Origin: an uncultured Myxococcales bacterium
Lineage (GTDB): Bacteria > Myxococcota_A > UBA9042
Length of the DNA stretch: 64,000 nt
Assembly: GCA_903955385.1 (NCBI GenBank)
Contig: CAJBNH010000032.1
Location: 1 to 64,000 of the forward strand
Direction of reading: 5' to 3'
Under the pieces are notes generated by a model, which saw nothing but the letters and a program-made list of their open reading frames with translations, did not search any database and was not told the DNA's origin. Of this stretch, positions 24,628 through 52,628 are shown piece after piece (position 1 is the first letter of the stretch; every line of letters begins with the position of its first letter). The position numbers were made by a program, and so were the translations under genes.

Positions 24628-27600
24628 ATGCCACCGCCCGCCACCCATCGCCGCTTCGACTTCGAGGGCTTGCTGCTCTCTCTGGAGCATCGCGCGCCGT
24701 TGACCGTGCTGGCCACCGCAGAGGCCGGGGTGGTGCCGTTCGTCCTGTCGAGCGTGCGGCACCGTCTGGATCGGCCGCTGGTGATCGTGGTGCCCGACGA
24801 ACGGCGCATGCGACAGGTGATCGAGGGCCTTGGAGCCTTCGAAGCCGAGCTTTGGCCCGGACTTGCGCCCGTCGTGCGGTTTGAGGCCAATGACGTCTCG
24901 CCGTGGCAGGAGATCGCGCCGATGCGGGCGCTGGCGGGGCGACGGATCTCAGCCGGCTATCGGCTGAACCTGGGGCTGGGCGTTGCAGCAATCGTCTTGC
25001 CTGTCGCGGCCTTGCTGAATCGGACGCTGTCTGGGCCGGTTCTCGATCGCAGCACGGCACTTGCCTCTGTTCACGCCAACTTGGACCGCGTCGAGCTGGT
25101 CGAGCTGCTGGCGGCCGGCGGCTATGAGCGGACGCCGTTGGTCGAGGATCCGGGGACTTTCGCGCTGCGGGGCGATGGCATCGACGTGTGGAGTCCGCTG
25201 TACGACGCCCCGGCGCGGGTAGACATGCTGGGCGACGACGTGGCCTCGATCCGTCGCTTCGACCCCGAGACGCAGCTGGCGCTGGACCAGGGCGGCCACC
25301 TGATCGACCTGTTGATGCCTCCGGCGCGCGAGCTGCTGCTGGACGCGGCGTCGGTCGTGGCTGCCGAGACGCGCTTGATCGCGCTGGCCGATCACCTCGA
25401 CGTCGGCAACGTCGAGCTGCGCGGCGTACTGGACGAGCTGCGGGCCGGTCACATCGTGCCGGGGATGGAGGCGCTGCTGCCCGCGCTGTCGCCGGATCGG
25501 TCGACGCTGCTCGAGCTTGCTCCCTCCAACGGCGTGCACGAGCCGATCGTGGTGCTGGACAACCCTGACGCCTGCATGGTCGCGCTGGATGTGGCCTGGC
25601 AGGAGCACGTCGCGCATTTTCAGCAAGCCCGCGCCGCGGGGCGATTCGTGTTTGCGCCTGAGCAGTTGTTTGCCACGCCGGAGCAGGTTCGCCAGCAGTT
25701 GGCCCGCCGCATCCAGTTGCACGTGCGGCCGTTCACCATTCACGAGGACGCGGCCCTGCCGACCTTCCAGCTGGACGTCGGGTCGAATCGCGAGGTGGCG
25801 GCAGAGCTGCGGGAAGCGAGGGGACACGACGAGGGTCTGCGGCCGCTGGTGTCGCGGATTCGGCTGGCCCGCAAGCTGCAGCAGCTGGTGGTGATCGCGG
25901 CACACGGCGAGGGCGGCCGGCAGCGGCTGGCGGCGATCCTGCGACACTACGGCGTCGGCACCGAGTTCCACGAAGGGCCGTTGAGCCCCGCCGACATCGC
26001 GGAGCTGAGACTGCGCAAGGACTTGGACGCGCTGCTGGTGCTGGGTGGGTCGGGCGAGGGCTACCACATCGAGGCCCTGCACCTGCTGGTCGTCGATGAG
26101 AACGAGATCTTCGGCCAGAAGACCGCCAAGCCCAGCGTGGCCACCCGCAAGAAGCAGACCTCGGGCCAGATGATCCGCGACATGGCGGAGCTGGTCGAGG
26201 GCGACTACGTGGTGCACGTCGACCACGGCATCGGCCGCTTCGTGGGCCTGAAGCGCATCGAAGCGGCGGGCGTCGCGCAGGACTTCCTGCTGATCCTCTA
26301 CAAGGAGGACCAGCGGCTGTATGTGCCTGTGACGTCGCTGGATCGCGTACAGAAGTACGTCACGGCCGAGGCGGCGTCGCCTGCGCTTGACCGCCTGGGC
26401 CACGACCGCTGGCTGAAGGTCAAGCGCCGCGTTCGCAAGGCCGTGGCCGAGGTCGCGCAGGAGCTGGTGCGCCTTTACGCTGAGCGACAAGCCCGCCCGG
26501 GGCACGCGTTTTCCGAGCCGGATGAGCTGTACCGCGAGTGGGAGGCGTCCTTTCCGTGGGAGGAGACGCCCGACCAGCAGCGCGCCATCGACGAGGTGCT
26601 GCTGGACCTGTGCACGCCGCGTCCTTCTGACCGGCTGGTGTGCGGCGATGTGGGCTACGGCAAGACGGAAGTGGCGATTCGCGCTGCGGTCAAGGTCGCG
26701 CTGGACGGCAAGCAGGTCGCCCTACTGGTGCCGACCACAGTGCTGGCCGAGCAGCATCGGCTGACCGTGATCGAGCGCTGTCGCGGATTGCCGGTGCGCA
26801 TCGAGTCGATCTCGCGCTTCCGGTCGCCGGCCGAGCAGAAAGACGTGCTGGAGGGGCTGGCCAAGGGCACGGTCGACATCGTGGTCGGCACCCACCGGCT
26901 GCTGTCCAAGGACGTACACTTCAAGGATCTCGGGCTGTTGCTGATCGACGAGGAACACCGCTTCGGCGTGGGGCAGAAAGAGCAGATCAAGAAGTGGAAG
27001 AGCCAAATCGACTGCATCACGCTGTCGGCCACGCCGATTCCGCGCACGCTGCAGCTTGCCACCCTGGGTCTGCGCGACCTGTCGCTGATCTCGACGCCAC
27101 CAGAGAATCGCAAGTCCGTGCGCACCATCGTGTGTCGCGGCACCGACGACGTGATCGTCGAGGCGTTTGATCGCGAGCTGGGTCGGGGCGGGCAGCTCTT
27201 CTACGTGTGCAACCGCATCGCCAAGCTGGAGGCTCTGGCGCGTCACCTGCAAGAGCTGGTGCCCGGCGTGCGGCCCGTGATCGCCCACGGCCAGATGGAG
27301 GAGTCGGCGCTCGAGGACGCGATGCTGCAGTTCATGCGGCGCGAGGCCAACGTCCTGATCACCACCACGATCATCGAGAGCGGCCTCGACATCCCCAACG
27401 CCAACACCATGTTCGTCGAGCGTGCCGACACCTTCGGCCTGGCCCAGCTCTACCAGCTGCGGGGGCGCGTCGGCCGGTCGTCGGTGCGCGCCTACTGCTA
27501 CCTGATGGTGCCTGAGCGTGAGGCGATGACGACCGACGGCGCGCGGCGGGTGGCGGTGCTGGAGCGCTTCAGCGAGTTGGGCTCGGGCGTGCAGATCGCC

Positions 27601-28299
27601 AGTCAGGACCTGGAGATCCGCGGCGCCGGCAACATCCTGGGCGAGGAGCAGTCGGGCCACATCGCCGAGATCGGCTACGACCTGTACGTCAAGATGCTGG
27701 AAGAGGCGGTCGCCGAGCTGCGCGGCGAAGAGCTGGGCGCGCCGATCGACCCCGAGATCAAGGCCAACGTCACCGCCTACCTGCCCGACGGCTACATTCC
27801 CGACCCGAACCAGCGGCTGCTCGCCTACAAACGGCTGGCGTCGGTGCGGTCGGAAGCCGAGCTGGATCAGGCGGTTCGGGTGCTCTGCGACCGTTATGGC
27901 CGACTGCCTGGCCCGGCCCAGGCACTGGTCGACACGCTGGAGCTGCGGGTGCTGGCGATCGCGCTCGGCGTCGCCAAGGTGGAACAAGGCCCCGGGGGTG
28001 TGGCGTTGACGCTGCACGAGAAGGGCCTGCTGCAGCCGGACGTGCTGCTGCCGTTGCTGAACCAGCGCGGGTCGCCCTATCGGCTGAGTCCCGACATGGT
28101 GCTGACGCGCGCCTGGACGCGCGCCGAACAGGAGCAACCGCTGGAGGCCACGCGCGATCTCTTGCGGCTTCTGACCGCCTGTGCCAAGAACCCCGCGGCC
28201 TTGACGATCGACGTCGCGTTGGAGCCGGTTGCCCCGCTCGCCCTGCCCGCGCCCCAGACACCGCCCCGCCATACCGGCCGGCGGCGGATCCTCTCTTGA
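24628..28299 (+). CDS. mfd: Transcription-repair coupling factor Mfd
   Basis: A 1,223-residue ATP-dependent translocase. It removes RNA polymerase stalled at DNA lesions and recruits UvrA. A UvrB-like module is N-terminal. The RNA polymerase-interacting segment is GDYVVHVDHGIGRFVGLKRI (about 530). The RecG-like motor has Walker A GDVGYGKT (about 673-680), DEEH (about 774) and LRGRVGRS. The C-terminal UvrA-masking domain ends near 1180. Length is close to E. coli Mfd (1,148). It starts the rightward run mfd-two parvulin chaperones-lexA and is read divergently from rplU. Confidence 0.97.
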   Translation: MPPPATHRRFDFEGLLLSLEHRAPLTVLATAEAGVVPFVLSSVRHRLDRPLVIVVPDERRMRQVIEGLGAFEAELWPGLAPVVRFEANDVSPWQEIAPMRALAGRRISAGYRLNLGLGVAAIVLPVAALLNRTLSGPVLDRSTALASVHANLDRVELVELLAAGGYERTPLVEDPGTFALRGDGIDVWSPLYDAPARVDMLGDDVASIRRFDPETQLALDQGGHLIDLLMPPARELLLDAASVVAAETRLIALADHLDVGNVELRGVLDELRAGHIVPGMEALLPALSPDRSTLLELAPSNGVHEPIVVLDNPDACMVALDVAWQEHVAHFQQARAAGRFVFAPEQLFATPEQVRQQLARRIQLHVRPFTIHEDAALPTFQLDVGSNREVAAELREARGHDEGLRPLVSRIRLARKLQQLVVIAAHGEGGRQRLAAILRHYGVGTEFHEGPLSPADIAELRLRKDLDALLVLGGSGEGYHIEALHLLVVDENEIFGQKTAKPSVATRKKQTSGQMIRDMAELVEGDYVVHVDHGIGRFVGLKRIEAAGVAQDFLLILYKEDQRLYVPVTSLDRVQKYVTAEAASPALDRLGHDRWLKVKRRVRKAVAEVAQELVRLYAERQARPGHAFSEPDELYREWEASFPWEETPDQQRAIDEVLLDLCTPRPSDRLVCGDVGYGKTEVAIRAAVKVALDGKQVALLVPTTVLAEQHRLTVIERCRGLPVRIESISRFRSPAEQKDVLEGLAKGTVDIVVGTHRLLSKDVHFKDLGLLLIDEEHRFGVGQKEQIKKWKSQIDCITLSATPIPRTLQLATLGLRDLSLISTPPENRKSVRTIVCRGTDDVIVEAFDRELGRGGQLFYVCNRIAKLEALARHLQELVPGVRPVIAHGQMEESALEDAMLQFMRREANVLITTTIIESGLDIPNANTMFVERADTFGLAQLYQLRGRVGRSSVRAYCYLMVPEREAMTTDGARRVAVLERFSELGSGVQIASQDLEIRGAGNILGEEQSGHIAEIGYDLYVKMLEEAVAELRGEELGAPIDPEIKANVTAYLPDGYIPDPNQRLLAYKRLASVRSEAELDQAVRVLCDRYGRLPGPAQALVDTLELRVLAIALGVAKVEQGPGGVALTLHEKGLLQPDVLLPLLNQRGSPYRLSPDMVLTRAWTRAEQEQPLEATRDLLRLLTACAKNPAALTIDVALEPVAPLALPAPQTPPRHTGRRRILS

Positions 28300-28328
28300 G
28301 CCGACCGCGCCATGCTGCACGAGGAAAG

Positions 28329-29483
28329 ATGTTGCGTTTCAAGATGTTCTTCCCTGCCGCCTGCGCGCTGACCCTGACGGTCGCCGCCTGCAACACGCCC
28401 CAGCGCCCCGCCGCGCCCGCGGCCGGTTCCTCAGCCACCGCCTCCGCAGCGGCCGCTGGACTGCCGGCTGATGCGAGCCCGACCGGCGCGATGGTCGCCA
28501 AGGACTCGCCGCTGACGGCCGACCAGCGCGCCATCGTGCTGGCCCGGGTCGGCGATCACGCGATCACGCTGGGCGAGCTTGAATTCCGTCTGGCGCAAGA
28601 GCCGTTGCCCACCCGCAGCCAGTTCGCCAGCGTGCAGAAGCGCAAGGAATATCTGGCCCGCATCGTGCAGTTCGAGGTGCTGGCGGCCGAGGCGAAGCGC
28701 CGGGGACTGGACCGGCATCCAGAGGTGGTCGAGGCCGCCAAGCAGCAGATGGTGCGCCGGCTGCTGATCGACGCGTTGGGCGACGACGATGCGCCGATTC
28801 AGGTGTCGGACGCCGAGCTGCGCGCCTACTACGACGCCAACCCCAGTCTGTACCACAAGCCAGAACAGGTTGAGATCAGTCACATTCTGCTGGCATCTGC
28901 CGCCCAAGCCGAGGGCGTGGCGAACGAGTTGCGCACCGAGTCCAAGGGCAGCACCGCCCGGCTGGTCGCCTTGTGGAACGAGCGGGTGTCCGCCCTGAGC
29001 CTCGATCAGACGTCGGCGCCCTATCTGGGCAATTTGGGTCTGGTGTCGCGCGAGCCGCCCATGGGTGCCACGCCCGCCGAGCTCGAGCGCCAGGGTCGCG
29101 TGCCGCCGGCCGTCATCGAAGCGGCGTTCGCGCTGGAGCCGCATGTCGTGGGGCCGGTGGTCGCCTCGGACTCGGGCTATCACGTGCTGATGGTCACCTC
29201 GCGCAGTCCGGCGGTCGACCGCACGTTCGAGGAGGTGAAGTACTCGATCCGCGCAAGGGTGGCCAAGCGTGAGCAGGATCTTGCCCGGCAGAAGTACATG
29301 GAAGCCGTGCGCGCCAAGACCCGCGTGGAGGTAACCGACGACGCCGTGCGGCTGCTGGTGGCTCCGACGATGGACCGCGCGCCGCGGCTGAAGGGCGACG
29401 GCCACAACCACGAGGAAGAGGGAGAAGACGCCCCGCCTGCCGCACCTGCCGGACCGGCCAAGCCCACCACCACCGCAAAATGA
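28329..29483 (+). CDS. Parvulin-type peptidyl-prolyl isomerase lipoprotein
   Basis: A 384-residue lipoprotein (ALTLTVAAC) with a SurA-N-like helical region (ARVGDHAITLGELEFRLAQE) and a PpiC/parvulin domain (VEISHILLAS to GYHVLMVTSR). The C-terminal tail is His/Glu/Ala/Pro-rich. Such proteins assist folding of exported proteins in the periplasm. ATG at 28329 is preferred: GAGGAAAG touches it and the signal peptide begins there. It is followed 53 bases later by a second SurA-like gene. Confidence 0.88.
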   Translation: MLRFKMFFPAACALTLTVAACNTPQRPAAPAAGSSATASAAAAGLPADASPTGAMVAKDSPLTADQRAIVLARVGDHAITLGELEFRLAQEPLPTRSQFASVQKRKEYLARIVQFEVLAAEAKRRGLDRHPEVVEAAKQQMVRRLLIDALGDDDAPIQVSDAELRAYYDANPSLYHKPEQVEISHILLASAAQAEGVANELRTESKGSTARLVALWNERVSALSLDQTSAPYLGNLGLVSREPPMGATPAELERQGRVPPAVIEAAFALEPHVVGPVVASDSGYHVLMVTSRSPAVDRTFEEVKYSIRARVAKREQDLARQKYMEAVRAKTRVEVTDDAVRLLVAPTMDRAPRLKGDGHNHEEEGEDAPPAAPAGPAKPTTTAK

Positions 29484-29536
29484 CCTGACTGTGAAAGGGG
29501 TTGCCGCGTCCGCTGACGCGCCGCCCGGGAGCCCGC

Positions 29537-30571
29537 ATGCTGACTTTTCGCTTCCTGCCGACCGCACTCGCTGCCTTTGCGCTTGCTGGCCTGACCGCCG
29601 CCTCTGCCGTGGCCGCCACGCCCGCTGAACCGCTGGACACGCGCCGCGCCGCCCTACCCGCAGGCTATGCAGAGGTCGACGGGATCGCCGCCGTCGCGGG
29701 CAACCAAATCATCACGATGGGCGACCTGCGCCGCGCCGTTGGCAGCCACCTGCAGAGTCAGTCGCTGGTCCCCACCGATGCCGAGCGTCCCCGCAGTGAG
29801 GCTGATCTGCGGATGCAGACACTGCAATCCCTGATCGACAGCGCTCTGGTGCTGCAGGCCGCCAAGGATCTGGGCCTGTCTGTGGAGGACAAGGAAGTTG
29901 ACGATCAGGTCAACGGCACCCGGAAGAAGCAGGGCTGGAGCGAGAAGGACATGCAGCAAGCCGTGCGTCGTCTGGGCTTCCGCGACCTGCCGGCGTACCG
30001 GGGGCATGTGCGCAACGAGCTGCTGCGGATGCAGATGCTGCGGGTCAAGCTGGGCGCCCGGCTGCGGGTGACGGACGAAGAGGTCAAGCGCGTCATCGAC
30101 CAAGAGAACGGCGGCGGCAAGTACGAGGACGAGGTCCGCAGCCGCCACATTCTGGTGCTGGTGCCGGCCGACGCAAGCCCGTCCGAGGTCGCCCGACTGC
30201 GCGAAAAGGCTTGGAAAATCCACGACGAGGTGATGGAGGGCAAGAAGACGTTCGCCGAGCTGGCGGAGGAATACAGCGACGACCACGGCGCCGAAGAGGG
30301 CGACTTGGGCTATCTGCGCCGCTGGACGCTGGACCCCACCTTTGCCAACAAGCTGTGGAGCATGCAGAAGGGCGAGATCTCCAAGGTGGTGCAGACGCCG
30401 TTTGGCTTTCACATCATCCAGATGCTCGACCGCCGCCGTGCCGAGGTGAAGGACCGCGAGGTGCTGGAGCAGTTCGTCCGCGCCCGCCTGTCGGAAGAGC
30501 AGTTCGTGCGCCTGTACCGCGCCTGGATCGAAGAGCTGCGGGCCGCCACGCACATCGAGACGCGGATCTGA
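29537..30571 (+). CDS. SurA-like periplasmic chaperone / peptidyl-prolyl isomerase
   Basis: A 344-residue protein with a cleavable signal (LAAFALAGLTAASAVAA) and a SurA N-terminal domain (DGIAAVAGNQIITMGDLRRA). It has one PpiC domain (about residues 196-300: SRHILVLVPADASPSEV, then GDLGYLRR and TPFGFHIIQML). SurA chaperones outer-membrane proteins; E. coli SurA has two PpiC domains and this has one. The start at 29537 has GGGAG upstream. It is second of a tandem pair of parvulin genes. Confidence 0.88.
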   Translation: MLTFRFLPTALAAFALAGLTAASAVAATPAEPLDTRRAALPAGYAEVDGIAAVAGNQIITMGDLRRAVGSHLQSQSLVPTDAERPRSEADLRMQTLQSLIDSALVLQAAKDLGLSVEDKEVDDQVNGTRKKQGWSEKDMQQAVRRLGFRDLPAYRGHVRNELLRMQMLRVKLGARLRVTDEEVKRVIDQENGGGKYEDEVRSRHILVLVPADASPSEVARLREKAWKIHDEVMEGKKTFAELAEEYSDDHGAEEGDLGYLRRWTLDPTFANKLWSMQKGEISKVVQTPFGFHIIQMLDRRRAEVKDREVLEQFVRARLSEEQFVRLYRAWIEELRAATHIETRI

Positions 30572-30603
30572 CGCTCGCGCCGAATTCAAACACACCCAGA
30601 CAC

Positions 30604-30631
30604 TTGACGGGATCGCGATCGCGGCGATACT
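30604..30631 (+). promoter_or_regulatory. lexA promoter
   Basis: -35 TTGACG (30604-30609), 16-base spacer containing the palindrome gatcgcgatc, -10 GATACT (30626-30631). It lies about 73 bases before the lexA ATG and is overlapped by the LexA box. Confidence 0.7.
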
Positions 30632-30643
30632 GAACATCTGTTC
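30632..30643 (+). promoter_or_regulatory. LexA box (SOS operator)
   Basis: GAACATCTGTTC is a perfect GAAC-N4-GTTC palindrome, the Bacillus-type LexA box. It begins at the base after the -10 element, so bound LexA would cover the transcription start. Autoregulation of lexA and the following methylase gene is expected. Confidence 0.8.
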
Positions 30644-30703
30644 CGTAGCTGCGTGCCGGGGTTTGTCCGGCCCGCACCGCCCTCCTGCCCCGAGAGGCCG
30701 CCC

Positions 30704-31414
30704 ATGTCGCCCCGCGCCGAGCTGACTCCCCGCCAGCAGAACATCCTGGACTTCGTAACGGAATTCCAAGGGCAGCACGGCTTTCCGCCCTCGATGCGCG
30801 AGATTGGCGAGTTCTTCGGCATCCGCTCGACCAACGGCGTCAGCGACCACTTGCGGGCGCTGGAGAAGAAGGGATTTCTGAACCGTTCTGGAAACTTGTC
30901 GCGATGCCTGCAGGTCGTTCGCGAGGACGGCAGCCGCGGCGACCCCGTGCGCAGCGTCCCGGCCAAGACCGCGGCGCGACCCATCGAGCGGCGCGACCTG
31001 CGCGGCGGTCCGGCGGGCACTCCGATCACCGTGCCGATCCTGGGAAAGGTCGCGGCTGGCCTGCCGCTGCTGGCGGTCGAGCAAGCCGAGGACGAGGTCG
31101 TCGTCGACTCTTTCCTGCTGGGCGGTCCCGGCGAAGTCTTCGGCCTGAAGGTCGTGGGCGAGTCGATGATCGACGCTGGCATCATGCCGGGCGACTTCCT
31201 GTTCGTGCGCCGCCGCTCGGTCGCGCTGCCGGGTCAGATCGTGGTGGCGATGATCGACGGCGAGGCCACGGTCAAGCGCTTCTTCCCCGAGGGCGACGTC
31301 ATCCGTTTCCAGCCCGAGAACAAGACGATGCAGCCGATCTTCGTGCGCCGGTCGCAGTTTCAGCAATGCGACCTGCTGGGCACCGTCGTCGGCGTGTACC
31401 GCAAGCTGACCTGA
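30704..31414 (+). CDS. lexA: SOS repressor LexA
   Basis: 236 residues: an N-terminal winged-helix DNA-binding domain (LTPRQQNILDFVTEFQGQHG, with PPSMREIGEFFGI) and an S24 autoprotease domain. The cleavage site Ala118-Gly119 (VAAGLP), Ser154 (GESMIDAGI) and Lys191 (ATVKRF) are all present, so RecA-stimulated self-cleavage should work. The linker between domains is about 30 residues longer than in E. coli LexA. The start at 30704 has GAGAGG upstream. Its stop overlaps the next ATG (TGATG). Confidence 0.96.
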   Translation: MSPRAELTPRQQNILDFVTEFQGQHGFPPSMREIGEFFGIRSTNGVSDHLRALEKKGFLNRSGNLSRCLQVVREDGSRGDPVRSVPAKTAARPIERRDLRGGPAGTPITVPILGKVAAGLPLLAVEQAEDEVVVDSFLLGGPGEVFGLKVVGESMIDAGIMPGDFLFVRRRSVALPGQIVVAMIDGEATVKRFFPEGDVIRFQPENKTMQPIFVRRSQFQQCDLLGTVVGVYRKLT

Positions 31415-32259
31415 TGTCGCAGCGACCGCCGCACTTTCTGCCGTACCAAGGCAGCAAGCGTCTGCTCGCGCCGCAGATCCTGGCCGCGCTGGGCGACCGC
31501 CGTTTCCGCCGCATCTACGAGCCCTTCGCGGGATCCGGCGCCGTGACGCTGGCCGCCGCCCACCGCAGCCTGGCCGACGCCTTCGTGCTGGGCGACTCGC
31601 TGCGGTCGTTGGCCGACCTGTGGCGGCAAGTGCTGACCGACCCCGCGGTGCTGGCGCAGGGCTACGAGCGGCTGTGGCACGCGCAAGAGTTGGACCGCGA
31701 CGGCCACTTCCTGAGCATCCGCGCAGAGTTCAATCAGTCCGCCAACCCCGCCGCACTGCTGTACCTGCTGGCCCGCTGCGCCAAGAACGCCCCCCGCTTC
31801 AACCAGTCGGGAGCCTTCAACCAAGCCGAGGACCGTCGCCGCCGCGGTGTGCACCCCGCCCGCCTGACACCACAGCTGATGCAGGTGGCCGCGCTGCTGC
31901 AAGGGCGGTGCGAGGTGCGCGACGGCGACTTTGCCGACCAGCTGCGGGATGCGGGACCCGACGACCTGGCCTATCTCGATCCGCCGTACGAGGGCACGTC
32001 AGTAGGCCGCGACCGGCGGTATCACCAAGGCCTGAACCGCGAGCGGCTGGTCGCCGAGCTGCAACACCTGATCGACCGCAAGGTGCCGTTCCTGCTGAGC
32101 TATGACGGCAGGACCGGGGACCGACGCTACGGCGAGCCGCTGCCAGAGCGGCTGGGGCTGCGGCGTCTGGAACTGCACGCTGGGCGCAGCTCGCAGGCGA
32201 CGCTGGCGGGGCGGGTCGAGTGGACCGTGGAGTCGCTTTACGTGTCGGGGGGGATGTAG
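31414..32259 (+). CDS. D12-class adenine-specific DNA methyltransferase
   Basis: 281 residues with an AdoMet-binding motif (EPFAGSG, about 36-42) and catalytic DPPY (about 189-192), in the order of the D12/Dam class; PYQGSKRLL at the N-terminus is typical. It should methylate adenine N6 in DNA; the target site is unknown. No restriction endonuclease gene adjoins it, so it looks like an orphan enzyme. The ATG shares one base with the lexA stop, so it is probably SOS-co-regulated and translationally coupled. Confidence 0.9.
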   Translation: MSQRPPHFLPYQGSKRLLAPQILAALGDRRFRRIYEPFAGSGAVTLAAAHRSLADAFVLGDSLRSLADLWRQVLTDPAVLAQGYERLWHAQELDRDGHFLSIRAEFNQSANPAALLYLLARCAKNAPRFNQSGAFNQAEDRRRRGVHPARLTPQLMQVAALLQGRCEVRDGDFADQLRDAGPDDLAYLDPPYEGTSVGRDRRYHQGLNRERLVAELQHLIDRKVPFLLSYDGRTGDRRYGEPLPERLGLRRLELHAGRSSQATLAGRVEWTVESLYVSGGM

Positions 32260-32269
32260 GGGAAAAGCC

Positions 32270-34075
32270 TCAGCCCCGCGTCATCCGCTCGATACGCCCC
32301 CGGTAGCCCTGCAATTCCAGGCTGTCCGGGTGGCGTTTCTGCAGGGCGTCCAGCAGCGCGACGGCCGACTCGTGGAACCCGCGCTCGATGAAGAAGTCCA
32401 GCGTGGTCAGGTCCTTCGACATATCGCGCAGGGTCGTGGGCAGCTCAGAGACGGTGTCGGGGCGACGGGCCAGGCGGGGACGCGGCAGCGAGTTGGAGCG
32501 GCGGCGCGCCGAGGCGACGGGTGAGGCGGCATCGTCGGCGGCGTGCTCGACCGAGGACTCGGGCCGCTTGGGCGGCAGGTCGAGGTCGGGCTCGACGGTC
32601 AGGTGGTCGGCAAAATCCTCGATCAGGTCCTCGGCCGTCACCAGCGGAGGCGGTTCTTCGGGCGGAATCGGCGCGATTGGCCGCGACGGGCGCTCGTTGC
32701 CCCCATGCGAAGTCGGCGCATCCCAGCGCGACGGCGCATGCCCCGAAGTCCGCAGCTGTTCCTGAACGGGCATCGAGGGATACAGCCCGGTCGGGTAGCG
32801 TCGCGCGGGAGGGGGCGGCAGGGGCACCCGGGCCGGCGGCAGGAAGGTCGAAGACGGGCGATTGGCGGGCACGGGAACCGGCGCTGATGGTCGAGGCGCG
32901 GGCTGCGCGGCGACGGGCGCTGGGGTGGGGGCGGGCGGCTGTGCCTGCGGCCGCACGGGCGACGACGGACGCGCGGTGGGGGCGGGCGGGCCAATGTGCG
33001 TCGCCGCGTATTGGGCCTTGCGGGCACGCGGCTCCACCACCCGCGAGGTCGGAACGTCCTCCAGCGCGGCATCGGGCAGATCCGGCATGTCGTGCAGGTC
33101 CGGCAGGTCGGGAAGATCCGGAGGTTCGGGCCGCAGGGGCTCGACAGGGCGGATTTGCGACCGACGCGACGCGGCCGAGGGTCCTGCAGCCAACTCCAGC
33201 ACGGTGTCGACCGCGACCGCCGGGCGCATGACGCCCATGTATTCCTTGGCGTCCTCGTCGTCCGGGTCCAGACCGTAAAGCCGCTGCAGCGTGCGATTGG
33301 CGTCGTCGGGCAGGCCGTTGCGGCGGAAGGTGCGGAACAGCTCGCGGCACAGCGCGGCGGCCTTCTCGCGCTGCCCCAGAGACTCCAGGGTGTCGATGAT
33401 GCGCTCGAGCAGCTCGGGGTCGCTGGGCACCGCCTCGTAGCACAACACCAGCTTGGACAGGGCGTTGGGATGTCGCCCCGAGCGGGCGTAGTGCAGGGCC
33501 AGATCGTGGGCCGTCGTGACGTCACGGGGGTCGTGGTGCACCAGCCGTTCGGCCACCTTTTCCCAGTCGTCGGTCTCGCCGCGCTCCAACAGCAGCTCTG
33601 CCAGCGAGCGGAACGACTCGATCGCCTCTTGCGACCGCCCAGCCCGACTCAGCGCCTCTGCAAGCTGCAGCCGCCCGGCCAGATTGTCCGAGTCCATGGC
33701 CAGCAGCCGACGCAGCACTTCGAGCCACTCGCCATGACGCCCCGCCGCCTCCAGCAGCCGACACGCCAGACCGTACTCGCGCACGGCGTCTTCGGTCATG
33801 CGCAGGCGGTGCAGCACCTCGCCGTAGGCCATCCGCACATCGGCGTTTTCCGGACGGATTCTGGCCGCCTGTCGCAGCACTGCCACGGCCTTGACCTGAG
33901 CATTGCGCGCCGAATACAGCGTCGCGACGATCAGCAGCTCGGCCACCGCCTCGTCCAGTCGACCGATGGCCTGCAGCTGCTCGACCCGCTGCAGCCGGTC
34001 GCGGATCTCGACCGCAGCGCCATCGCGACCGGAATCGGCCCTGCTTGACGCGTCTGCTGCGGGACGAGTTGCCAC
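32270..34075 (-). CDS. TPR-repeat protein with long proline-rich linker
   Basis: 601 residues without signal peptide or membrane helix. Residues about 25-285 form tetratricopeptide-like repeats (GRLDEAVAELLIVATLYSAR, NALSKLVLCYEAVPSDPELL). A Pro/Ala/Arg-rich disordered region (about 300-500) follows, then an acidic stretch and a small C-terminal TPR-like unit (FFIERGFHESAVALLDALQK). Likely a cytoplasmic scaffold; the partner is unknown. The start is GTG at 34075 with a weak ribosome site, so the exact N-terminus is unsure. Its end converges with the methylase gene, 10 bases apart. Confidence 0.78.
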   Translation of the reverse strand: MATRPAADASSRADSGRDGAAVEIRDRLQRVEQLQAIGRLDEAVAELLIVATLYSARNAQVKAVAVLRQAARIRPENADVRMAYGEVLHRLRMTEDAVREYGLACRLLEAAGRHGEWLEVLRRLLAMDSDNLAGRLQLAEALSRAGRSQEAIESFRSLAELLLERGETDDWEKVAERLVHHDPRDVTTAHDLALHYARSGRHPNALSKLVLCYEAVPSDPELLERIIDTLESLGQREKAAALCRELFRTFRRNGLPDDANRTLQRLYGLDPDDEDAKEYMGVMRPAVAVDTVLELAAGPSAASRRSQIRPVEPLRPEPPDLPDLPDLHDMPDLPDAALEDVPTSRVVEPRARKAQYAATHIGPPAPTARPSSPVRPQAQPPAPTPAPVAAQPAPRPSAPVPVPANRPSSTFLPPARVPLPPPPARRYPTGLYPSMPVQEQLRTSGHAPSRWDAPTSHGGNERPSRPIAPIPPEEPPPLVTAEDLIEDFADHLTVEPDLDLPPKRPESSVEHAADDAASPVASARRRSNSLPRPRLARRPDTVSELPTTLRDMSKDLTTLDFFIERGFHESAVALLDALQKRHPDSLELQGYRGRIERMTRG

Positions 34076-45782: not shown

Positions 45783-47846
45783 TCACTTGACGGCAGAGGC
45801 CACGGTCGGGCGCGAGGCCGACAGCTTGGTCTGGATGATGCTGAGCAAGGTGTTGGCGAGGATGTACAGCGTCAGGCCCGAGGGCAGCTGCAGCATCATC
45901 AGCGTGAACAGCGCGGGCATGAAATACAGCATCATCTTCTGCTGCATCGGGTCGCCAACGGTCTGCGGCGTGATCTTCTGCTGCACGAACATGACGGCGC
46001 CCAGCAGCAGCGGCAGCACGAAGTAGGGGTCCTTCTGCGTCAGGTCGGTCACCCAGCCGAACAGCGGCTGGTTGAAGAGCTCGACCGACGCGCTGATGGT
46101 CCGGTAGAGCGCAATGTACACGGGCAGCTGCAGCAGCATCGGCAGGCAGCCGCCCAGCGGATTGACGCTGTGCTTCTTGTAGAGCTCGAACGTCAGGCGG
46201 TTGAGCTCCTGCGGGTCAGCCTTGTCCTGCCCCAGCTTCTTCGCCTTGGCTTCCAAGTCCTTGCGCAGTGCGTCCAGCTCAGGCTTGAGCTCCTGCATCT
46301 TGCGCATGCTCTTGATGCTCTTGCCCGTGATGGGCCACAGCAGCAGCTTGACCAGCAGCGTGAGCATCAGGATGGCGATCGGCCAGGAACCCGTCAGTCC
46401 CTGCGAAAACTGCAGCACCGCCAGCATGGGGCGGGCGATCACCGCAAACCAACCGAAATCGACCGACTGGACCAGGTCGTGGCCGGCCGTCTCGAGGTAG
46501 TTGACGTCCTTGGGTCCGGTGTAGAGGTCGAGCGCCTGCGTCTGCACCTGCCGACCGCGCAAGCGCGCCTCGGCCGCCGTCAGCACGGCCACTTCGACAC
46601 CGTTGTTCCGAGCGGCGGTGACGGCGGGCTCCAACGTCTTGGCGTCCAGCGCGGTCTCTTCGGCGCTCGTCTTCAGCCCCAGGGTGTCCAGATCGGCGCG
46701 GCAGGAGTTCCCTCCCCAAGTCTTGGCATACCACTCAGGCACACAGGCCGACGAAGCGCCTAGCAGGGCATCGCCAGCTCCGCGCAAGCCAGAAAGGATG
46801 ACGCCGTTTGCCAACCAGGACAGGTGCACCAGAGACTGCGGCGCCTGACCCGCAACGGGTGCTGCAGCAACCAGAAAGTAGCGCGAGTCGACGCCGAACC
46901 AGCTGGGGACACCACCGTGCTGCCGGTCCTCGAGATCGGCCGTCGGAATGGCCGTCGCGTCGTGGCGATACCGCTCGCCGCCGATGTAGTAGCCCGCGCC
47001 CTTGACGTCGGGCAGACCGGCGAAGATCGCGAAGAAGCCGCCCGACTCTTGATGCGTCGACTGGAAGCTGGTGACTTCGTGGGCGACGCGGAACTTCACG
47101 GGGAGCGGCCCCAGGTTCCAGATCGCAACCTCATAGCGAAGGCTGTACGGGTTGGCGGCGTCGGCAAGTCGATAGCGCTTTTGGACGTACACGGGGCTCT
47201 GGATGCGCGAGGGGTCCGGCCAGACCAGCACGACCTCGCGGTCCGACTGGGAGACAACGCCAAAGCGCCCGTCCTGCTTGACGAATGTGGCAAGATCGAC
47301 CGGTCCCAGCGGCCGGACCTGACCCGCCTCGTCGCGGGTCTGCAGCGTGACCGGGTTGGGTGACACCGCCTCCAGCTCGACGCGGAAGGGGTCCCAGCGG
47401 GCATCCCACGTATCGACGAGGTCCAGCGGACCGGCAGCGAACTTGTCCTTGGCCCAAGGGGCAACGCCAGCGGGGGCCTCCCGGGCGCGCAGGGCGAATT
47501 GCGGGTCGGTCAGGCGAACCGACTGCAGACCACCGCGACAGGGTGAGATCGTCCACTGAGCCAGCGAGCTCTTGAGCTCGACGCCGACTGCGCCGGGACG
47601 GCACGGCGGAGCAACAAACCGAGCAGGTGCCATCGCTTCCACCGCGGTGGCTGCAACAGGAAGCGCGACGGCCGCGGCAGACGGAAGCACCGTCGGGGAA
47701 ACGGCCACCGGCAGGTCGCCCGCCGGCGCTGCGGCCTGAGTCGGCGCCGCTTCGACGCCCTCGGCAGCGCGGCCAAGGCTTGCGTCGCTGGCCGTCGCTA
47801 CGAACAGCACCGCGGCTAGCATCAGGATTCGGACGGTCTGGGTCAT
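45783..47846 (-). CDS. yidC: Membrane protein insertase YidC
   Basis: 687 residues. YidC inserts and folds inner-membrane proteins, alone or with Sec. It has an N-terminal signal-anchor, a large periplasmic domain (to about residue 445) and the conserved insertase core. The core includes IAILMLTLLVKLLLWPIT with the Lys/Arg-containing groove, LGGCLPMLLQLPVYIALYRT and MMLYFMPALFTLMMLQLPSG. This domain order is the Gram-negative type. The N-terminal 100 residues are Ala/Pro-rich, making it longer than E. coli YidC (548). Confidence 0.96.
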   Translation of the reverse strand: MTQTVRILMLAAVLFVATASDASLGRAAEGVEAAPTQAAAPAGDLPVAVSPTVLPSAAAVALPVAATAVEAMAPARFVAPPCRPGAVGVELKSSLAQWTISPCRGGLQSVRLTDPQFALRAREAPAGVAPWAKDKFAAGPLDLVDTWDARWDPFRVELEAVSPNPVTLQTRDEAGQVRPLGPVDLATFVKQDGRFGVVSQSDREVVLVWPDPSRIQSPVYVQKRYRLADAANPYSLRYEVAIWNLGPLPVKFRVAHEVTSFQSTHQESGGFFAIFAGLPDVKGAGYYIGGERYRHDATAIPTADLEDRQHGGVPSWFGVDSRYFLVAAAPVAGQAPQSLVHLSWLANGVILSGLRGAGDALLGASSACVPEWYAKTWGGNSCRADLDTLGLKTSAEETALDAKTLEPAVTAARNNGVEVAVLTAAEARLRGRQVQTQALDLYTGPKDVNYLETAGHDLVQSVDFGWFAVIARPMLAVLQFSQGLTGSWPIAILMLTLLVKLLLWPITGKSIKSMRKMQELKPELDALRKDLEAKAKKLGQDKADPQELNRLTFELYKKHSVNPLGGCLPMLLQLPVYIALYRTISASVELFNQPLFGWVTDLTQKDPYFVLPLLLGAVMFVQQKITPQTVGDPMQQKMMLYFMPALFTLMMLQLPSGLTLYILANTLLSIIQTKLSASRPTVASAVK

Positions 47847-49636: not shown

Positions 49637-51031
49637 ATGTCGGACCTTTGGACTCAGGTGCTGGGACAGCTGCGCACCACGACGAAGCGGTCGGTCTATC
49701 AGTCGTGGCTCGAGCGCATCGAGCTTGTCGACCAGACCGCCGACTCGGTGCAGCTGGGCGTCCCCGACGATGGCTTCCGCGACTACGTGGCGACGCACCA
49801 TCTGGATGCCATCCGTGAGAGCCTGCAGAAGCTGATCGACCGCCCGGTGGCCGTCGAACTCGTTGTCGCTTCCGACCTTCGACCCTACAGCCGCCCGTCG
49901 ATCGACCGCGGCCCTGCCACACGCAAGCCGCAGACCAGCTTGCCGTTCGCCCCTGCCGATCATGCGCTGCCTCCAGGGGAGACGCTGCCCGCTGCCTCGA
50001 CCGACGATCGCTTGTCTGGCCGCTTCACGTTTGATTCTTTCGTCATTGGAAAGTCTAACGAATTCGCTGCATCAGCGGCACTCGCCGTCGTGTCTTCGCC
50101 TGGCGTCACCTACAACCCGCTGTTCCTGTACGGCGGCATAGGCACCGGCAAGACGCACCTGCTCAAGGCCGTCGGACACGCCATCCAGGCCAAGCGCCCC
50201 GGCAGCAAGGTGCTGTATGTACCCGCCGAGACGTTTGCCGACGACACGATTCACGCGATGATCTCTAAGGAGCCCTCGACCCGCGCCGACGTGCGGCACC
50301 AGTACCGCAGCGTGGACGTGTTGCTGGTCGACGACGTGCAGTTTCTGCAGGGAAAGACCAAGACTCAGGACGAATTCTTTCACACGTTCAATGCCTTGCA
50401 TCATGCCGGCAAGCAGATCGTGCTGTCCTGTGACCGCTTTCCGTCTGAGCTGCAGGAGTTCCACGATCGCCTGCGCAGCCGCTTCGACTGGGGTCTGGTC
50501 GCCGAGCTGGCACCGCCTGATCGCGAGCTGCGGCAGGCCATCCTGGTGCGCAAGGCAACCGAATTCGGCATGACGGTACCGCTCGACGTGGTGTCGTACC
50601 TGGCCGACCACCTGCGCAACAGCGTTCGCGAGCTCGAGGGCGCGCTGAACAAACTGAACGCTCACAGTCACATCGCACGGCGTCCGGTCGACCTGACGCT
50701 GGCCCGCCAAGTGCTGGGACCGATGATCGAGCTGCCGTCGCGCAACTTGACGGTCGAGGTCATCCAGCGCGTGGTCGCCCATCACTTCAACCTGAAGATC
50801 GCCGATCTGAAGGGAAGCAAGCGCCACCGCAGTGTCGTCGTGCCGCGCATGATCGCGGTGTCGTTGACGCGCAAACACACGGCGTTGTCCTTTCCCGACA
50901 TCGGCCGGGCCTTCGGCGGTCGCGACCACTCCACGGCCATCCACGCCGTGCAGAAGGTCGACTGGATGCTGGCGACCGATCCCGAGGTCCAGGCGACTTT
51001 CCAGACCCTGGAAAACGCGCTGGGCAAGTAG
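49637..51031 (+). CDS. dnaA: Chromosomal replication initiator DnaA
   Basis: 464 residues. Domain I (MSDLWTQVLGQLRTTTKRSV), a variable linker, AAA+ domain III with Walker A GGIGTGKTHLL and Walker B VLLVDDVQFLQGK, and domain IV with the DNA-binding signature GGRDHSTAIHAV. It binds DnaA boxes and opens the origin. ATG at 49637 has GAGG seven bases upstream; the frame is open 28 codons earlier without family similarity. Confidence 0.97.
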   Translation: MSDLWTQVLGQLRTTTKRSVYQSWLERIELVDQTADSVQLGVPDDGFRDYVATHHLDAIRESLQKLIDRPVAVELVVASDLRPYSRPSIDRGPATRKPQTSLPFAPADHALPPGETLPAASTDDRLSGRFTFDSFVIGKSNEFAASAALAVVSSPGVTYNPLFLYGGIGTGKTHLLKAVGHAIQAKRPGSKVLYVPAETFADDTIHAMISKEPSTRADVRHQYRSVDVLLVDDVQFLQGKTKTQDEFFHTFNALHHAGKQIVLSCDRFPSELQEFHDRLRSRFDWGLVAELAPPDRELRQAILVRKATEFGMTVPLDVVSYLADHLRNSVRELEGALNKLNAHSHIARRPVDLTLARQVLGPMIELPSRNLTVEVIQRVVAHHFNLKIADLKGSKRHRSVVVPRMIAVSLTRKHTALSFPDIGRAFGGRDHSTAIHAVQKVDWMLATDPEVQATFQTLENALGK

Positions 51032-51497
51032 ACGATCGTCGAGTCCCTGCCGGTCGATCGCCGCATCACCAAGTTCAACTTCAACTTCAAGACCTTTCCT
51101 GACACAGTCACGTCCAAAGTGCCTGTGGACAAGTCTGTGGACATGTCCCTTTCGACTGTGGACCGGAAGTGGACCGAAGGACCCGCCTGTGGACGGCTTG
51201 AAAGGGCTGTTCAGAAGCCCCCCAGTCCCCCACAGGCGTCCCCGTTTTCCTCCACAGCTCGATCGCTTGGAAACCATGATTCATGTTTGGTTTTTTGAGG
51301 TTGTCCACCCGTCCACAGGCCTTCCGATCCACACCACCTTATCTAACCCCTGATCCGGATCGGATCGGTGGTAAGGCTGAGAACGTGAGCGGTGTCCCAA
51401 CAGCCGGGTGGGTCTTTGCAAGCGTGGCCAGACGCGGTAGAAAGCTTCGTTCGCTTCAGAGGGCAGCCAGCACGCCCCGCACGTCAAGGGAGCCAGC
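51032..51497. other. Probable chromosomal origin (oriC) between dnaA and dnaN
   Basis: 466 non-coding bases with many TGTGGA/TCCACA sites. Best DnaA-box matches: TGTGGACAA (51124-51132), TGTGGACAT (51136-51144), TGTGGACCG (51157-51165), TGTGGACGG (51188-51196), TCCTCCACA (51248-51256), TTGTCCACC (51301-51309), CCGTCCACA (51309-51317) and CGATCCACA (51325-51333). The first is one base from the consensus complement TGTGGATAA. The tract 51271-51297 is about 70% A/T, unlike its surroundings, and could be the unwinding element. A triple ttcaac-type repeat lies at 51074-51091. Confidence 0.8.
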
Positions 51498-52628
51498 ATG
51501 AAGGTCCGCATCGACAAGGCCGCGCTCGCGGTGCCGCTCTACCGCGCCCAGGGTGTCGTAGACCGCAAGACGACCACCAACGTGACCGCTTGCGTGCACA
51601 TCTCCGCCGGAGAAGACGGGCTGACGTTCTCGGCGACCGACTACGACGTCACGATCACCGCGGAGGCCTCTGCCGAGGTGATGGAACAGGGTGCCGTGCT
51701 TGTGAACGGCCGCGCGCTTTTCGATGTGGTGCGCGCACTGCCGGACGAGTCGATCGTGCAGCTGACCAGCGACGACAACCATCGTCTTCGCATCGAGGCT
51801 GGCCGGTCGTACTTCCACCTCAATGGCATCGCGCCGGAGGAGTTTCCGCCTTCGGCCATGGAGGCGGGCGGCGGCAAGAGCCTGATCTGCGACAAGAGTC
51901 AGGTTCAAGCGATGTTGAGGCGCACGCTGTTCTCGGTGCTGGCCGACGACAGTCGTCCGGCGTTGAGCGGTGTGCTGCTGGAGATCGAGCCCGAGGCCGC
52001 GGGTCAGGCCCGACTGCGCATGGTGTCGACCGATGGCCATCGGTTGAGCAAAGCCGAGCGCACGGTCGCCGCCACCGACTACGACGGCACCAAGTACCGC
52101 TGCATCGTGCACCGCCGCGGCGCCGCCGAGCTGCAGCGCATTCTCGACGGCAGCGACCCGTCGGTCCGCATCGAGTTTGTGGGACGCAACGTGGTCTTCT
52201 CCAGCGACAAGGCGCGGTTGCAGATCCGCCAGATCGAGGAGAGCTTCCCCGACTACAGCCGCGTCATCCCTGAGCGTGGCGATGCCGTCATCACGCTGGC
52301 CACCAGTTCCCTGCTCAGCTCGATCCGTCGCGTCAGCTCGCTGGCGAACAACAAGGACGCGACCCTGCGGGTCGAGATCGCCGACGGCATCATGTCTCTC
52401 GAGATGAAGCATCAGGATGTCGGCGAAGCGCATGAAGAAATCGAGCTTCCCGACTCGGCCGGCGTTCGCCTCAAGGTTGGCTTCAACCCCCGCTTCCTGA
52501 TGGAAGTTTGCGGCGTGCTGGAGACCGAGAACATCACCCTCGAAATGAGCGACCAGTTCAGCCCCTGTCTCGTCCACAGCGACGAAGAGCCGGGGTCGGT
52601 CTTCGTCATCATGCCGATGCGCCTGTAG
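51498..52628 (+). CDS. dnaN: DNA polymerase III beta sliding clamp
   Basis: 376 residues in three clamp domains. FSATDYDVTITAEASAEV, RPALSGVLLEIE, VSTDGHRLSKAERT, FPDYSRVIP and the C-terminal VFVIMPMRL are family hallmarks. It encircles DNA and tethers polymerase III and repair enzymes. GGGAG precedes the ATG. It lies directly after the putative origin. Confidence 0.97.
   Translation: MKVRIDKAALAVPLYRAQGVVDRKTTTNVTACVHISAGEDGLTFSATDYDVTITAEASAEVMEQGAVLVNGRALFDVVRALPDESIVQLTSDDNHRLRIEAGRSYFHLNGIAPEEFPPSAMEAGGGKSLICDKSQVQAMLRRTLFSVLADDSRPALSGVLLEIEPEAAGQARLRMVSTDGHRLSKAERTVAATDYDGTKYRCIVHRRGAAELQRILDGSDPSVRIEFVGRNVVFSSDKARLQIRQIEESFPDYSRVIPERGDAVITLATSSLLSSIRRVSSLANNKDATLRVEIADGIMSLEMKHQDVGEAHEEIELPDSAGVRLKVGFNPRFLMEVCGVLETENITLEMSDQFSPCLVHSDEEPGSVFVIMPMRL

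Follow-up and report, generated by a model that had tools for sequence, protein, structure and literature searches.

The 64,000-nt window (the whole stretch of DNA that was analysed, from an uncultured Myxococcales bacterium; its genome is hereafter G000) contains a lexA gene that overlaps with a downstream gene for a D12-class adenine methylase, and both stand behind a promoter that carries a LexA box (Table 1). The order mfd-foldase-foldase upstream of lexA is conserved in two relatives (G002 and G005). The dnaA and dnaN genes (49637-52628) lie some 18 kb away from lexA and yidC occupies 45783-47846; this stretch is probably the replication-origin region.

Table 1 Features of the lexA-methylase locus and its flanks (positions in the window)
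Feature	Position	Strand	Details
mfd and two PpiC/SurA-type foldases	24628-30571		Directly upstream of lexA
Sigma-70-like promoter of the lexA operon	30604-30631	+	TTGACG, 16 nt, GATACT
LexA (SOS) box	30630-30645	+	CTGAACATCTGTTCCG; overlaps the end of the -10 hexamer; upstream of lexA-methylase
lexA, SOS repressor	30704-31414	+	236 aa; intact DNA-binding and S24 autoprotease domains
TGATG overlap	31412-31416	+	lexA stop TGA 31412-31414, methylase ATG 31414-31416; A in common
D12-class N6-adenine DNA methyltransferase	31414-32259	+	ATG 31414, stop 32259; 281 aa; PF02086
TPR protein	32270-34075	-	Downstream of the methylase, then genes reading as efp and aroQ

The repressor gene was identified as lexA at the equivalog level (TIGR00498: 198.8 bits, cut-off 110.95). 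Its product matches both PF01726 (DNA-binding domain) and PF00717 (S24 peptidase) and retains the motifs of autoproteolysis, i.e., the VAAG cleavage motif, the GESM serine motif, and the VK lysine motif. A one-base overlap between lexA and an adenine methylase gene, claimed in an earlier note on this DNA, was confirmed by the intact reading frames, the TGATG junction, and the conservation of the pair. Translational coupling of the two genes is probable from this junction. Within positions 30400-32400, the promoter of the lexA operon is the sole promoter-like site (shuffled sequences: 0.1 +/- 0.3), and neither a terminator-like site nor a second promoter signal was found in this interval. The reading of the two genes as one transcription unit is therefore supported: they share a strand, overlap, are conserved as a pair, and follow a LexA-boxed promoter, and no signal for a further promoter or a terminator separates them, which is the layout of an operon whose genes are predicted to be co-transcribed. 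The arrangement of the -35 hexamer and the box in the lexA promoter is matched in most relatives.

To describe the SOS regulon, G000 (95.6% complete, 201 contigs) was scanned with pattern and profile searches. Aligned with the published LexA box of Myxococcus xanthus (CTRHAMRYBYGTTCAGS; PMC9705874), the box CTGAACATCTGTTCCG matches 15 of the first 16 bases. Its core, TGAACANNTGTTC, occurs at only two sites in the 5.3 Mb genome (reversed control pattern: 0), and exact matches to the pattern CTGAACNNNNGTTCMG number four, located at lexA, an ImuA-like gene (C184; RecA-fold), an ImuB-like gene (C163:143; Y-family polymerase), and a DnaE2-like polymerase gene (C163:16199; named from the start of its product). 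With one mismatch allowed, the overall number of CTGAACNNNNGTTCMG matches does not rise above background (44 versus 41 for the control); boxes of this kind precede recA (C12), uvrA (C141), a UvrD-type helicase gene, and another gene on C48 that by eye looks like a helicase gene. Because LexA boxes precede recA, imuA-like, imuB-like, dnaE2-like, and uvrA genes in G000, we consider this a real SOS regulon, and the lexA-methylase transcription unit belongs to it by the box in its promoter. An imperfect LexA-like palindrome, CTGAACGGATGTCCAG, is present in two identical copies (L212:3050 and 7158, corresponding to G000:C48:26549 and 30657), both of which precede helicase-like genes about 4 kb apart.

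In M. xanthus, LexA-bound boxes were reported for recA2, lexA, and the pafB-pafC-cyaA operon (PMC9705874). The two regulons resemble each other in the autoregulated lexA promoter, in a near-identical box (one mismatch in 16), and in having recA among the targets, whereas the text of the M. xanthus LexA study (PMC9705874) nowhere uses the word 'methyltransferase'.

Based on profile, motifs, and fold, the downstream gene encodes a D12-class methylase. Its product scored 92.6 bits against PF02086 (MethyltransfD12; gathering score 22), possesses motif I and DPP(Y/W), and yielded an AlphaFold2 model (mean pLDDT 88.7) with the Dam/DpnM fold, for which the top Foldseek match was E. coli Dam (E 2e-13, about 21% identity). 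Across 18 aligned orthologues, neither the motif I residues (EP..GS.A) nor the DPP of the catalytic motif vary, and Ka/Ks values of close pairs are low (~0.14-0.17); for these reasons the reading frame is regarded as a gene under purifying selection. The enzyme shares the D12 class and fold with E. coli Dam and DpnM and appears to be solitary, as Dam is, but, unlike Dam, falls below the TIGR00571 cut-off (81 bits versus 114.85). A Dam identity was rejected on this basis, given that another gene fits: the Dam-family member of G000 is a paralogue on a separate contig (C196, L094:6626-7501), with 139 bits against TIGR00571. Most of the family's genomes carry copies similar to the C196 methylase.

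The specificity of the lexA-linked methylase is probably other than GATC. A literature search for GATC-contact residues gave nothing usable. Target prediction from palindrome avoidance was abandoned, with no tetranucleotide palindrome showing a usable signal against Markov expectation, and the complete lack of TTAA in the window was discarded as a target signal, being explained by a general lack of TA-containing words.

The neighbours of lexA were compared among 22 genomes from 10 genera of the family to which G000 belongs; most of the genomes compared are fragmented metagenome assemblies. A methylase orthologue was found in 17 of the 22 genomes, and the pairing, for which the earlier note had proposed such a comparison, is present in 11 of these 17, where the methylase lies directly behind lexA (G000, G001, G002, G004, G005, G008, G009, G012, G013, G016, and G020), spanning seven of nine genera. 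G002 was counted as linked, though its methylase spans a contig break (ends 96% identical over 341 nt; lexA on one side, TPR-efp on the other). All 11 linked genomes have a LexA box upstream of lexA. In most of them, possible methylase starts fall between -4 and about +20 nt from the lexA stop, and in G005 and G008 about 70-110 nt past it. The pair was kept despite lost upstream neighbours in five g5 genomes, G001, and G008, despite lost downstream neighbours in G005, and despite the loss of both flanks in G012. With the pair retained in 11 genomes, a chance pairing is excluded. The G012 LexA (L062, G012:C99) is very divergent (40% identity) and its gene is preceded by a cyclophilin-like gene; the methylase lies within about 45 nt of this lexA, and the LexA box upstream is kept.

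Unlinked methylases were found in G003, in the five gene-bearing genomes of genus g7, and in G029 (another family of the same class). No LexA box above background was found within 400 nt upstream of these unlinked genes, and no orthologue was found in genus g8 or in G021. SOS control is thus confined to some members of the family and is dispensable to the enzyme, as shown by the box-free unlinked copies and by one genus that lacks the gene. The pairing put forward in the earlier note thus withstands the comparison with relatives that the note named as its refutation, with g7, G003, and the genus without the gene as exceptions. Phylogenetic trees fit both a single origin of the linkage with later losses and its gain on more than one occasion.

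To trace the origin of the methylase, 84,980 species genomes were scanned, and full-length homologues with about 40-58% identity were found in many phyla. Neighbour clustering revealed that their dominant neighbour is an HNH endonuclease of about 240-265 residues, which adjoins the methylase at 48 (clustering) or 50 (tblastn) of about 75 homologue loci. The pair is present on a small Hymenobacter plasmid and, with an adjoining helix-turn-helix regulator gene, on a small Aeromonas plasmid, a layout that reads as a type II restriction-modification (R-M) system. Outside the records of the family itself, no lexA match was found near the homologue loci. HNH-free loci exist outside the family as well, showing that solitary methylases are not restricted to positions behind lexA, and the family's methylases do not form one clean clade in the subfamily tree. 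From this relationship, the lexA-linked methylase appears to descend from a type II R-M subfamily.

The family's enzyme resembles the D12/HNH methylases of Hymenobacter pHsw3 and Aeromonas pWP2-W18-CRE-05_9 in full-length identity (about 41-58%) and in its tree subfamily, but differs from them in lacking an HNH neighbour, in lying behind lexA in most of the genera that have it, and in occurring across the majority of genomes in a single family. A type II R-M system with an HNH nuclease was found neither near the methylase nor elsewhere in G000: of the 36 genomes searched with the HNH profile, G000 among them, only G013 gave a match, a broken 91-residue fragment with a stop. The possibility that relatives still hold the nuclease was therefore rejected. 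As no intact match to the HNH profile was obtained, the methylase is solitary in the family as far as seen and apparently domesticated; a nuclease from a different family may share its specificity. The designation of the methylase as an orphan is supported in that its usual nuclease family was not found in G000. The genome contains a second, truly Dam-family methylase.

Taken together, we assign a probability of about 0.6 to a bicistronic, LexA-controlled operon in which damage raises an active solitary methylase that completes methylation after SOS repair. Under this model, the LexA-repressed lexA promoter would drive both genes as one bicistronic message, and autorepression would keep synthesis of the methylase low and steady in undamaged cells. 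RecA filaments formed upon damage would provoke LexA cleavage, so that lexA and methylase mRNA rise jointly, and termination-reinitiation at TGATG would couple translation of the methylase to that of lexA. The product would be an active adenine-N6 methyltransferase working alone, the HNH nuclease of its R-M ancestors being missing in the family, and its most likely role would be to keep genome methylation complete as SOS repair synthesis and recombination yield unmethylated tracts. Methylation is thus probably turned up upon DNA damage, as far as the promoter sequence predicts, and catalytic activity and role are likewise predicted. The cell would most likely benefit either from methylation being kept complete during extensive repair synthesis or just from low, buffered expression of the enzyme, and the data fit both. 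A stronger version, in which methylation is a programmed SOS output of the family and repaired DNA has its adenine marks restored or rewritten by the methylase, with effects on survival, mutation, or expression, seems unlikely to us; confidence in a functional SOS role stays modest mainly because the unlinked, box-free copies show that the enzyme is useful without SOS control.

The alternative with the best prospects, which we give perhaps one chance in four, is that the methylase is a housekeeping enzyme that lost its own regulation and its nuclease, is expressed from the lexA promoter at a low, buffered constitutive level, and is induced by damage as a functionless side effect. LexA autoregulation results in stable low expression; the copies in g7 and G003 do their job without a LexA box, and the partly conserved flanking synteny implies that the linkage is in part a matter of inherited gene order. 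Retention of the pair where one or both flanks changed (G005, g5, and G012), however, goes beyond simple synteny. It is considerably less probable that induced methylation acts as an SOS-timed epigenetic switch, altering the expression of specific genes or marking old versus new strands in repair. The placement of a gene under selection in the SOS operon would suit this idea, as would two GATC sites between the lexA -35 and -10 hexamers (30611 and 30617), but the Dam-family member is a different paralogue, and the methylase itself lies below the Dam cut-off. With GATC as frequent as about one per 149 bases in this DNA, a pair of sites within 133 nt is nothing unusual, and a GATC methylation switch in the lexA promoter was rejected for this reason. 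An active R-M system, with its nuclease encoded elsewhere in the genome and protection boosted by the SOS promoter during damage, would agree with the usual pairing of this methylase subfamily with an HNH nuclease but is highly improbable, given that profile searches of G000 and the linked relatives recovered nothing but the G013 fragment and that a gene could be missed in an assembly of this completeness and contig number but hardly in all relatives.

Solitary methylases derived from R-M systems are common, and their regulation is rarely obvious from sequence. The new element here is a non-Dam methylase of this origin that, judging from its sequence context, is placed behind a LexA promoter. 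No earlier description of a lexA-methylase operon was found in titles, abstracts, and passages from open-access searches, which does not prove that none exists. The conserved operon puts a solitary methylase behind the master repressor of the DNA damage response in most genera of one family, and close relatives that keep the methylase without LexA control provide a natural comparison for methylation as an SOS output. A solitary DNA methylase linked to SOS is also represented by Caulobacter ScmA, whose loss raises the SOS response through VsrA (PMC12907096). The ScmA link is functional, but unlike the family's enzyme, ScmA produces 5-methylcytosine, and its connection to SOS is described as a consequence of its loss and not as a lexA operon.

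With respect to the nuclease partner of the homologues, the widespread HNH endonuclease family is matched by the generic HNH Pfam model alone, and searches for relatives with solved structures returned weak matches only. Its members (e.g., L134:8897-9622, L179:2804-3493, L180:1961-2680, and about 47 other loci) carry an HPPRA block close to the N-terminus and, towards the C-terminal end, a block rich in Cys.
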